Below are positions 56,083-60,152 of a stretch of DNA of 64,000 nt, piece after piece. Under the pieces are notes generated by a model, which worked only from the letters and a program-made list of their open reading frames with translations, was not told the origin of the DNA and did not search any database. The stretch lies in the NCBI GenBank assembly GCA_943841885.1, contig CALSZZ010000002.1, forward strand, positions 154,262 through 218,261, in the 5' to 3' direction. How positions within the stretch are numbered: position 1 is the stretch's first letter; each line of letters begins with the position of its first letter. A program made the translations under genes and the position numbers. The DNA is from Candidatus Thalassarchaeaceae archaeon. GTDB taxonomy: Archaea; Thermoplasmatota; Poseidoniia; Poseidoniales; Thalassarchaeaceae.

Positions 56083-56880
56083 TCATTCCCAGCCTAATTC
56101 TTCTATGACTCTTTCAGCGCCCTTTTCAGAAATCATTTTTAATACCGGTTTGTAAATTTCCCATGCAACAATGGCTACAAATAGGCCAGAAAATAAATCA
56201 AACATATAATGCTGCTTCGTAGTTAGTATACTAATGCATAATAATACCCATTCTATCCACAAGATAATCAAGAAATAGTTAGTCCACTTTCTTTCCGAAT
56301 AATTATTTTTTAACCAATAAGTAATTATTCTTGCAAGGCAGTATGAATGAACAATGTGTAAACTAGGCCAAGCATTCCATGGCTTATCTGATGTATGTAT
56401 GAATTCAAATAAAATTGTCTCAACTGCATTCATAGATCCCCAATCAATAGCGTCTCTCATATCAACTTCTGCTGGAAACAAAAGAAATAAAATCACGCAA
56501 AAGAGAGTTACAAGTATTAGCATTTGCATAGCAGAAATTAACTCCAATCTACCTTTGTCATTTCTTGGTGCGAGAATTAGAGTAGCAGGATAAAAAAGAT
56601 ATAATGCTGCATACGGAATAATCATCCAATTTATCACAGGAACTGTACGATCATACGAGTTCTCAGGAAATACTGCAAAAGCATCATCGAGATAAAAATT
56701 AGCTATATTATTAGAGCCAAAATATGGTATCGCAATGAATATTAATCCAAAAACACAAATTTCGAAAGAAAACCATTTCCCATTCAACATCTCACGCCTT
56801 TTCCAACTACTGGCCCAAAATCGCTTCCATGGAATTATCAATTTAGAAGGAAATGTATCAGCCTTCATGACCATCACCAA
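56083..56880 (-). CDS. PAP2 superfamily membrane phosphatase / phosphatidylinositol-transferase-like
   Basis: NAWPSLHIVHSYCLARII and TKQHYMFDLFSGLFVAI. Confidence 0.75.
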   Translation of the reverse strand: MVMVMKADTFPSKLIIPWKRFWASSWKRREMLNGKWFSFEICVFGLIFIAIPYFGSNNIANFYLDDAFAVFPENSYDRTVPVINWMIIPYAALYLFYPATLILAPRNDKGRLELISAMQMLILVTLFCVILFLLFPAEVDMRDAIDWGSMNAVETILFEFIHTSDKPWNAWPSLHIVHSYCLARIITYWLKNNYSERKWTNYFLIILWIEWVLLCISILTTKQHYMFDLFSGLFVAIVAWEIYKPVLKMISEKGAERVIEELGWE

Positions 56881-56923: not shown

Positions 56924-58375
56924 TCATTTTTTATCTGGTAAAATTTCTGATGTCATTACAGTCATTGCTGAAGATCCGAGTAGTGCGCAAAGGAATACTT
57001 CTAAATTTGCTAAACCATCATCATTAGTTGGAGAAAATAAATAATCTATTCCAGCAGAAAAGTCTTCTGTTAGCGTCCCATAAATAATTACAGATAAAAT
57101 TCCTGAAAAAGCACCAATAAGAGTTCCTTTTGATGATACTCTGTCCCATAATGTCAAAAGAATTGGGCCAATAGTGGCTGCAGCATATAAATCAGCTCTC
57201 AGAAAAATTTCGAATACTCCTCCACTATCTAAAGTAAATCCCATAATCGTAGGCCCAGTTGCCAAATAAATCGCCAAGGGAATCATTGCAATAGTTAGAA
57301 GCCTAGATACATTAAAACTAATATTCTCATTCAAAATATCTCTAGATAAAGATGCTATAATTGCATTTTGTAATGTGTCTGCACTGGAACAAACTAATGC
57401 AATAGATAGTATTACAAATGCTACTATTAGGATTGTACTTATGTCTTCAATCAAATAGAAGAAAGAAACTGCTGGATCTTCAACAGCGCCTTGTCCTGCT
57501 ACTACTGTTCCTAGAAAACCCATTACAAATACCAAAGGAAAAACAATTAGGGAAGCGCCAATTGCTCCTTTTTTCAATGCCCTTTCATTTTCACTGGCCC
57601 AAGCTCTTTGCCAATTACCTTGTGAAAACATCTCAGCAGCAGTAATCGCAATTACAAGTGCTAAACCTGATTTAAATGTCGATGTATCACTTATACTTCC
57701 ATGATACCATTCCCATTCAATATCTTCGGGAGTATATAACTTGGCATCAGAAATCAAACTATTTATGTCTAAAACAAATAGTATCATCAGTAAAGATGTA
57801 ATTAAAATCATTATTGACCATGCTTGAATTTTATCTGTTTCAAGGGATGCAGGTAGGCCGCCATATGCAGTGTATCCTGCAGTAACAATACCTACTGCAA
57901 TCATAGGAAATAAAGGATTCATTCCAACTAAAATTTCCATCACTTTACCAATAGCGATGAATTCGGCAAAAAGAAATGTGAACATATACAAAATTGAAAT
58001 TAAACCAACATAAATTTGCATTGGCCTGCCAGCACGAGATTTGGCATAATCAGCAAGAGTAACGCCATTAGGTATTTTTTCTCTAATAATTGGCCCTATG
58101 TAGGCAAGTAGGAGAAAAGGAGTTGATGCCGATAAAGCATAACCAAAAACATCCCAGAATCCTCCATAATACCCTACTTCTGAAGGCCCCAAAAGAACCC
58201 AAATACCCATTCCTGATGCAAAAAGGCTCAGCGTAATACTCATCGTATTTTGAGTGCCTCTAGCAGATAAATATTCGTCATTATTAATTTCTCTTTTTGA
58301 TGTCGCTTTGTACCCTATATATCCAAAGAGTCCCAGTGTAATTACTACCAATATGTAAGCTATTTCTATATCCAT
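56924..58375 (-). CDS. sodium:solute symporter (SSS) family transporter; candidate thiamine-related transporter from riboswitch context
   Basis: NTMSITLSLFASGMGIWVLLGPSEVGYYG, polytopic SSS fold; TPP riboswitch directly upstream. Confidence 0.87.
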   Translation of the reverse strand: MDIEIAYILVVITLGLFGYIGYKATSKREINNDEYLSARGTQNTMSITLSLFASGMGIWVLLGPSEVGYYGGFWDVFGYALSASTPFLLLAYIGPIIREKIPNGVTLADYAKSRAGRPMQIYVGLISILYMFTFLFAEFIAIGKVMEILVGMNPLFPMIAVGIVTAGYTAYGGLPASLETDKIQAWSIMILITSLLMILFVLDINSLISDAKLYTPEDIEWEWYHGSISDTSTFKSGLALVIAITAAEMFSQGNWQRAWASENERALKKGAIGASLIVFPLVFVMGFLGTVVAGQGAVEDPAVSFFYLIEDISTILIVAFVILSIALVCSSADTLQNAIIASLSRDILNENISFNVSRLLTIAMIPLAIYLATGPTIMGFTLDSGGVFEIFLRADLYAAATIGPILLTLWDRVSSKGTLIGAFSGILSVIIYGTLTEDFSAGIDYLFSPTNDDGLANLEVFLCALLGSSAMTVMTSEILPDKK

Positions 58376-58376
58376 T

Positions 58377-58460
58377 TATCATTCCTCCGCTGGAATTACC
58401 CAGATCAGGTTCTTGGGTCGTTACTTTCGTAACCTCTCAGCAAAAGCTCCCCATATAATA
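58377..58460 (-). promoter_or_regulatory. TPP (thiamin pyrophosphate, THI-box) riboswitch
   Basis: Reverse complement: TATTATATGGGGAGCTTTTGCTGAGAGGTTACGAAAGTAACGACCCAAGAACCTGATCTGGGTAATTCCAGCGGAGGAATGATA; contains CTGAGA, ACCC, GAACCTGATCTGG and TAAT-CCAGCG in canonical order with foldable P2/P3/P4-5 stems. Confidence 0.95.
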
Positions 58461-58490
58461 GGATGAATAGAATGTTATTGAATATTGCCA

Positions 58491-60152
58491 TTATTCGTCT
58501 GATTGCATGAAAGAATATTCCCATTCTTGCGGTATTTTCAATGATCTTTTGACTGATCGAGGACTTATCCACCTTAGTAGGTTTAATGGACCTCCTGCTT
58601 TATCGTTAGTGCCACTCGCTCTAGCACCTCCAAATGGTTGTTGAGCAACAACTGCACCTGTTGGTTTATCATTAATATAGAAATTACCTGCAGTAAATCT
58701 TAGTACATTAAACGCCTTTTGAATATCTTTTTCATCATTAGCAAAAATAGATCCGGTAAGTGCGTAAGGAGAAGATTTATCACATATTTCAAGAACTTCT
58801 TCAAATTTTTCATCTTCATAGACATAAACGGTCAATAATGGTCCGAATATTTCATCCACCATGGTTTCATAATGAGGATCATTACTTACTACTATAGTTG
58901 GCTCGATAAACCATCCAATTGAATCATCATATCTTCCTCCAACTATAATTTCACATTTTTGGTTATTCTTTGCTCTATCTATATATCCAGTAATCTTATT
59001 AAATGATCTTTCATCTATGACCGCAGTCATAAAATTGGTAAAATCTCTAGCATCCCCCATCTTTATTTTCTTTATTTCAGTACATAAATCTTCAGATATT
59101 GAATTCCATACTGATTTAGGGACATATGCACGACTGGCAGCAGAACACTTCTGACCTTGATATTCAAAAGATCCTCTTAGTAATGCAACCAATAATCCTC
59201 TGTGGTCACAATTTGGATGGGCTACAACAAAATCTTTACCTCCTGTTTCTCCAACGATTCTGGGATAAGAACGAAGTTTAGGAAGAGCAAGTCCTATTTC
59301 TTGCCATAAACCTTGAAAAGTCGATGTTGAACCAGTAAAATGTAAGCCTGCAAAATCAGGATTAGAAAGAGCAACTTCTGTAATTTCAGCACCAGATCCG
59401 GGGAGAAAATTTATCACTCCTGCAGGCAATCCAGCCTCCATCATCAATTGCATTAGTAAGTAGTTAGAGTAATATGAATTACGACTTGGTTTCCATATTG
59501 ATGTGCAGCCTACTATGGCTGGAGCACTTGGTAGATTGGCAGCAATACTTGTAAAGTTAAATGGAGTAATTGAAAGTATAAAACCTTCTAAGGGTCTTAT
59601 CTCAGTAGAATTTTTTACACCTTCTGGTGAAACCAAGGGCTGTAAATCATCATGAAAACCACGAGCATAATGACAGTTGAATCGCCAGAAGTCAATCAAC
59701 TCACATGCAGAATCAATCTCTGCTTGATAAACAGTCTTTGATTGGTTTAACATTGTTGCGGCGTTGATTCTCATTCGCCATTTTCCTGCTAATAGATCTG
59801 CACATTTTTCAAAGATTGCACATCTGCCTTCTAAACCCAACTCTATCCATAATTTTTGAGATTCAACAGCAGACTCACAAGCCTCTATAATTTCTTTTTT
59901 CGTCGCTAAATGAACTTTAGCAATCACATGTTTATGATCATGAGGTATTACCTGATTAGTAGTAATCCCTGTAAATATTTCTTTTCCATTAACTATGCAT
60001 GGAATTTCAATAATTTCACTCATCTGTTTGTGTAGTTCATTTCGTATTTTTACACGTTCTTCAGAACCTGGTGCATATTCAAGTATTACTTCATTGACTG
60101 GCTGTCCATTCATATTCTTCCGTATGGGCATATCTTCTATATTGTTACGCAT
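58491..60152 (-). CDS. 1-pyrroline-5-carboxylate dehydrogenase (L-glutamate gamma-semialdehyde dehydrogenase)
   Basis: FILSITPFNFTSIAANLPSAPAIVGCTSIWKPS, VGETGGKDFVVAHPN, RGSFEYQGQKCSAASRAYVP. Confidence 0.9.
   Translation of the reverse strand: MRNNIEDMPIRKNMNGQPVNEVILEYAPGSEERVKIRNELHKQMSEIIEIPCIVNGKEIFTGITTNQVIPHDHKHVIAKVHLATKKEIIEACESAVESQKLWIELGLEGRCAIFEKCADLLAGKWRMRINAATMLNQSKTVYQAEIDSACELIDFWRFNCHYARGFHDDLQPLVSPEGVKNSTEIRPLEGFILSITPFNFTSIAANLPSAPAIVGCTSIWKPSRNSYYSNYLLMQLMMEAGLPAGVINFLPGSGAEITEVALSNPDFAGLHFTGSTSTFQGLWQEIGLALPKLRSYPRIVGETGGKDFVVAHPNCDHRGLLVALLRGSFEYQGQKCSAASRAYVPKSVWNSISEDLCTEIKKIKMGDARDFTNFMTAVIDERSFNKITGYIDRAKNNQKCEIIVGGRYDDSIGWFIEPTIVVSNDPHYETMVDEIFGPLLTVYVYEDEKFEEVLEICDKSSPYALTGSIFANDEKDIQKAFNVLRFTAGNFYINDKPTGAVVAQQPFGGARASGTNDKAGGPLNLLRWISPRSVKRSLKIPQEWEYSFMQSDE

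Follow-up and report, generated by a model that had tools for sequence, protein, structure and literature searches.

A predicted TPP riboswitch and its putative thiamine importer in a proposed exchangeable locus for vitamin B1 uptake of Marine Group II

Marine Group II archaea are abundant heterotrophs of the surface ocean. In a 64-kb stretch of one such genome, from Candidatus Thalassarchaeaceae archaeon (64,000 nucleotides, hereafter the window), a short leader on the minus strand separates the gene for L-glutamate γ-semialdehyde (P5C) dehydrogenase (P5CDH; 58491–60152, minus strand; TIGR01236, 763.5 bits) from a gene for a symporter of the SSS family (56924–58375, minus strand; start codon ATG at 58375). 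What does this leader sense, and what does the transporter behind it carry? We consider it highly probable that the leader is a translational TPP riboswitch and that, in this archaeon auxotrophic for thiamine, it controls an importer of the vitamin that is coupled to sodium. Judged from sequence and comparative data, the RNA switch very probably senses the finished vitamin B1 and hides the ribosome-binding site of the importer gene.

A cmscan search against all Rfam families matches the leader to RF00059 over the full length of the model (1–105), at 58463–58364 on the minus strand, with 56.1 bits and an E-value of 2.7e-8. The score exceeds the gathering threshold of 54.3 bits by 1.8 bits, and by Rfam's own threshold the leader is a TPP riboswitch, which would bind TPP as its ligand. 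RF00059 is the sole Rfam family at or above threshold within the window, and this match is the sole TPP match in the entire genome (1.49 Mb, 80% complete). The aptamer (58364–58463) extends into the first symporter codons. Read along the minus strand, it comprises the 5′ strand of P2, GGGG (58449–58452), which pairs with the CCC of GACCC; the CTGAGA core (58440–58435); the P3a hairpin GTTAC-GAAA-GTAAC (58420–58433, with strands at 58433–58429 and 58424–58420); ACCTGATCTGG from 58410; the 5′ strand of P4, CCU (58407–58409), within an invariant ACCTGA; and CCAGCGGAGG (58393–58384). All THI-box elements quoted in the initial annotation, which had proposed a TPP riboswitch at this position, are present on the minus strand, and its assignment agrees with the Rfam match.

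The element recurs in 81 of the 244 genomes of the order, representing 12 of 22 genera, and exceeds the RF00059 gathering threshold in 55 of the 244. Aligning 58 distinct leaders and scoring them against the aptamer structure, we find P2, P3, P4, and P5 paired to 99–100%. P3a is paired to 100% with two-sided changes in four of its five pairs, and P5 displays two-sided changes in two of four pairs. The CUGAGA and ACCUGA cores, CCT, and GGAGG are invariant, as is the fully paired GGGG strand of P2. The helices P2, P3, P3a, and P4/5 that had been proposed from the single sequence are thus upheld by the relatives, and near-complete pairing combined with two-sided changes places this observation far beyond chance. 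The modest RF00059 score, the poor conservation of P1 (see below), and the loss of the element in several relatives would also fit a decayed TPP riboswitch that has lost switching and is retained as a mere ribosome-binding site. We regard such decay as most unlikely, as the cores of the ligand pocket are all invariant and P3a covaries in the 58 leaders, neither of which a bare ribosome-binding site needs.

Wherever the contig permits reading, the gene 3′ of the riboswitch encodes either this SSS symporter or a lipoprotein of 360–390 amino acids; the remaining riboswitches, with their downstream gene unread, are located at contig ends. Two of the riboswitch-adjacent lipoproteins were scanned, and both are thiamine ABC transporter substrate-binding proteins (ThiB) according to TIGR01254 (179.7 and 157.8 bits, cut-off 93.4). 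An archaeal riboswitch–symporter locus nearly identical to that of the Marine Group II genome G052 also occurs on a contig titled Acidimicrobiaceae bacterium (PATJ01000003.1), which is probably mis-binned.

The Shine-Dalgarno sequence of the symporter, GGAGG (58384–58388, minus strand), is located 8 nt before the ATG and within the conserved aptamer. Its AGG (58386–58384) constitutes the 3′ strand of P4 and pairs with the CCU in the invariant ACCUGA. In the RF00059 consensus this strand reads uAGG (CGuAGGGA), whereas it reads GAGG within CGGAGG here, so that GGAGG is part of P4. The spacing between GGAGG and ATG amounts to 6–8 nt in 73 of 80 leaders, and the anti-Shine-Dalgarno 3′ end of the 16S rRNA, TGGATCACCTCCT, is present in the same genome. 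The overlap between ribosome-binding site and riboswitch is conserved among the relatives, with GGAGG and P4 invariant in the 58 leaders.

The initial annotation had likewise proposed occlusion of the ribosome-binding site, assigned there to a P1 helix of TATTAT and ATGATA, the latter placed between the Shine-Dalgarno sequence and the start codon (58377–58382, minus strand). This helix can form in the window and, with a different sequence, in two genus mates. Across the relatives, however, only 35.6% of cells show a paired P1, its partners pair no better than permuted ones in a permutation test, and ATGATA is not conserved beyond the genus; on pair counts and permutation test together, we reject P1 as a general occluding helix. 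What stands is the location of the Shine-Dalgarno sequence inside a conserved element and the preservation of this overlap, but the conserved helix predicted to occlude it is P4, via the AGG of GGAGG, and not P1. Within the own genus, the extra P1 reaching to the start codon may add to the occlusion.

Since the Shine-Dalgarno sequence lies within P4, a TPP-stabilized P4 would cover the ribosome-binding site directly. When TPP is plentiful, the aptamer would be stabilized and P4 (CCU with AGG) would sequester GGAGG, blocking the ribosome and preventing synthesis of the importer. When TPP is scarce, P4 would open, the Shine-Dalgarno sequence would be free, and the symporter would be translated. 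Imported thiamine would subsequently be converted to TPP by thiamine pyrophosphokinase (TPK). In the energy model without ligand, the Shine-Dalgarno sequence is mostly paired already (unpaired at 27% on average and at 1.5% in the window), and no clean alternative ligand-free "on" fold with an open Shine-Dalgarno sequence emerged from the energy calculations. Further upstream, about 30–45 nt from the aptamer, many loci share a recurrent ATGTTGAATA- or ATATTCAATA-like stretch (about 58475–58490 in the window), a candidate promoter element that would provide the importer with a transcript of its own.

The transporter itself, a protein of 483 amino acids, matches the SSS family PF00474 with 67.6 bits (cut-off 22.8) and adopts an SGLT/SiaT-like predicted fold, with SGLT2 and SiaT among the top folds (TM 0.72–0.76 by query length). 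Family, fold, and context together suggest a thiamine importer that is probably coupled to Na+. A sequence search of the PDB yields no matches beyond distant SGLTs and one sodium-dependent multivitamin transporter. The symporter of the nearest relative (MED-G38) is 96% identical, and the named relatives are metagenome-assembled genomes (MAGs) of Marine Group II or Candidatus Thalassarchaeaceae. Relatives of the protein are annotated as "sodium:proline symporter", and P5CDH, an enzyme of proline catabolism, is encoded just upstream in most loci of the own family, at gaps of 3–12 nt where the riboswitch is missing. One might thus read the symporter as a proline or amino-acid importer in an operon with P5CDH, where the riboswitch either makes the use of proline depend on TPP status or is present incidentally. 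This reading is very improbable. The symporter scores 43.4 bits against the PutP equivalog TIGR02121, whose cut-off is 515.5 bits; in other lineages it adjoins ThiR-like regulators, TPK, or tenA rather than P5CDH; and symporter and ThiB are mutually exclusive. Moreover, the symporter's place behind P5CDH can be taken by the ThiBPQ importer, which is why we reject an assignment as proline transporter from P5CDH adjacency.

Gene content defines the need that the importer has to serve. None of the order's 244 genomes encodes ThiC, for which 13 of 14 control genomes were positive; ThiE and TenA give no match reaching the cut-off in 30 genomes, and ThiN was not found in the own genome or in a sample of the own family. 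TPK is encoded in 221 of the 244 genomes, including the own one. For the thiazole synthase Thi4, the matches in all 30 genomes stayed below the cut-off and spanned ~40 residues; we read them as generic nucleotide-binding motifs and rejected them. The symporter is found in 86 and ThiB in 121 of the 244 genomes, and not one genome carries both, compared with 42.6 expected (hypergeometric probability ~1e-36, a value that ignores kinship). Neither of the two is found in 37 of the 244 genomes, some of which are more than 90% complete, for example G003 (with a riboswitch at a contig end), G015, and G030.

Thiamine, and not proline, is the most plausible cargo of the symporter, a reading strongly supported by four lines of comparative evidence: the metabolic need, the exclusion of ThiB, the position in the locus, and the gene neighbors in other lineages. 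The initial annotation had left the choice between thiamine and a precursor open. A precursor such as HMP or AmMP has been proposed as cargo for SAR11 ThiV, which is reported to be HMP-specific in a strain unable to use exogenous thiamin (PMC11452348), and haloarchaeal homologues of the symporter adjoin tenA. Here, the lack of ThiC in the 244 genomes and of ThiN in the own genome and the family sample, together with ThiE and TenA below cut-off in 30 genomes, means that known enzymes could not join HMP to a thiazole. Nearly all genomes encode TPK, whose substrate is whole thiamine, and the alternate importer is built around the thiamine-binding ThiB. Intact thiamine is consequently the form that the cell could use, and a precursor as cargo is very unlikely.

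The gene neighborhoods of the putative thiamine importer reveal a locus of exchangeable parts. In the own family, P5CDH forms the upstream flank and is followed by riboswitch plus symporter, riboswitch plus ThiB, a ThiR-like gene plus ThiBPQ, or the symporter alone. The next gene after the cassette encodes a PAP2-like membrane protein (56083–56880, minus strand, in the window), and in the relatives, whether the cassette holds ThiBPQ or the symporter, a similar protein is encoded after it. In three loci of the own genus, each from a different genome, a ThiR-like regulator with a ThiN domain and ThiB-ThiP-ThiQ replace riboswitch and symporter behind P5CDH. In Poseidoniaceae-like genomes, the gene immediately preceding the symporter or ThiBPQ codes for a protein whose ThiN domain is clear and whose HTH is weak. 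In Marine Group III, the symporter is located between a ThiR-like ThiN-domain gene and TPK (TIGR01378, 138 bits), and haloarchaeal homologues follow tenA. A Halomonas homologue (34% identity) is preceded by a TPP switch of 65.1 bits with CGGAGG before the ATG, and the Shine-Dalgarno sequence overlaps P4 there too.

Among the 86 symporter genomes, 62 have the riboswitch, seven a ThiN regulator, and 17 neither; among the 121 ThiB genomes, 14 have the riboswitch only, 95 ThiN only, three both, and nine neither. The leader is therefore not universal among symporter genes. In ten of the loci read, the symporter begins 3–12 nt after the P5CDH stop, leaving no room for a riboswitch, and thiamine control has apparently been lost. 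The leader expected upstream of orthologous symporters is thus found for the majority and missing from the rest, seven of which have a ThiR-like regulator instead, although the link to thiamine persists. Two loci depart from these arrangements. In genome G122, a single frame of 915 amino acids (locus L251, 2718–5462, minus strand) starts like a ThiB lipoprotein and has the length to accommodate a ThiP permease as well, a possible ThiB-ThiP fusion. In G047, a ThiR-like gene (locus L252, 4446–5276, minus strand) has no adjacent importer and the symporter is found on another contig, indicating a possible relocation.

Comparative analysis indicates that, in this slot of Marine Group II, importers as well as regulators have repeatedly been exchanged for another type. 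On the P5CDH tree, the nine riboswitch-plus-ThiB loci require eight changes, at least seven of which are forced by well-supported branches; on the symporter tree, the regulator label requires 12 changes, at least six of them forced for the riboswitch. The window, which is one contiguous sequence, is placed differently by the two trees. Its P5CDH and leader are 93–100% identical to a MED-G38 contig that carries ThiB, a similarity which is lost from about 58420–58380. Beyond this point, the window is 91–100% identical to a second MED-G38 contig, which carries the symporter and whose P5CDH is only 68–88% identical to that of the window. This switch in identity maps a crossover to the inside of the riboswitch, with the caveat that MED-G38 is a MAG in which both contigs end at the locus, so that strains may be mixed. 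The MED-G38 MAG (G152) contains both versions of the locus (L160 and L063, on contigs C5 and C14), each at a contig end, which suggests either that one population comprises two strains differing in their importer or that the bin is chimeric. We lean, by a modest degree, toward a modular vitamin B1 uptake locus in which TPP riboswitch or ThiR and SSS symporter or ThiBPQ are exchanged independently, in all four combinations, and in which the conserved riboswitch can serve as the homology joint for swaps of importer cassettes between related cells.

The type of switch is already known. Like the THI element of RF00059 in general, the leader combines CUGAGA and ACCUGA cores with P2, P3, P3a, P4, and P5 and a thiamine-transport gene downstream; it differs in that P4 carries the full Shine-Dalgarno sequence, most relatives have a weak P1 or none, and the host is archaeal. 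SSS transporters under TPP riboswitches, termed ThiV or SSSP, have been described in SAR11, Methylobacillus, and other bacteria as well as in algae; a haloarchaeal clade, for which no riboswitches were detected, also belongs to the group (PMC4260697, PMC11452348). Further, thiV is listed among the TPP-regulated genes of marine metagenomes (PMC2211319), and Dur31, a Candida SSS protein with a TPP riboswitch, is reported to be a thiamin transporter (PMC5997356). As in ThiV/SSSP, the host is auxotrophic for thiamine and a TPP riboswitch precedes the gene of a PF00474 member, and the orthologous group shows the same association with TPP riboswitches and thiamine genes, a likeness of family and association. 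The differences lie in the Marine Group II/III host and in a gene content that points to thiamine and not to HMP. The symporter riboswitch is accordingly an archaeal addition to the known TPP-riboswitched SSS transporters. In relatives, ThiBPQ takes the symporter's place behind this riboswitch, but it belongs to an unrelated protein family, is ATP-driven, and requires three genes. ThiR (PF0601) regulates thiamine transport in Pyrococcus (PMC10746257); its HTH- and ThiN-bearing counterpart occupies the position of the riboswitch and likewise represents archaeal control of thiamine transport, but it is a protein regulator acting on transcription and is absent from the own genome. In the open-licence literature, we found no account for Marine Group II of the riboswitch, of the exchangeable locus, or of a Shine-Dalgarno sequence placed in P4. 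What is novel is the locus, flanked by P5CDH in the own family, in which either regulator, riboswitch or ThiR, is combined with either importer, symporter or ABC system, and in which one crossover maps within the riboswitch.

This exchangeable locus of regulator and importer is the more interesting part of the result than the riboswitch itself. Here nature has repeatedly run the experiment of replacing an RNA regulator by a protein, or of replacing the importer behind an unchanged riboswitch. A gene commonly labeled as a proline symporter would gain a function in thiamine import. Judged by gene content, the sampled order does not make its own pyrimidine half of thiamine and would have to import the vitamin via either of two unrelated importers, a dependence which yields a testable prediction on the cross-feeding of vitamin B1 in the ocean.
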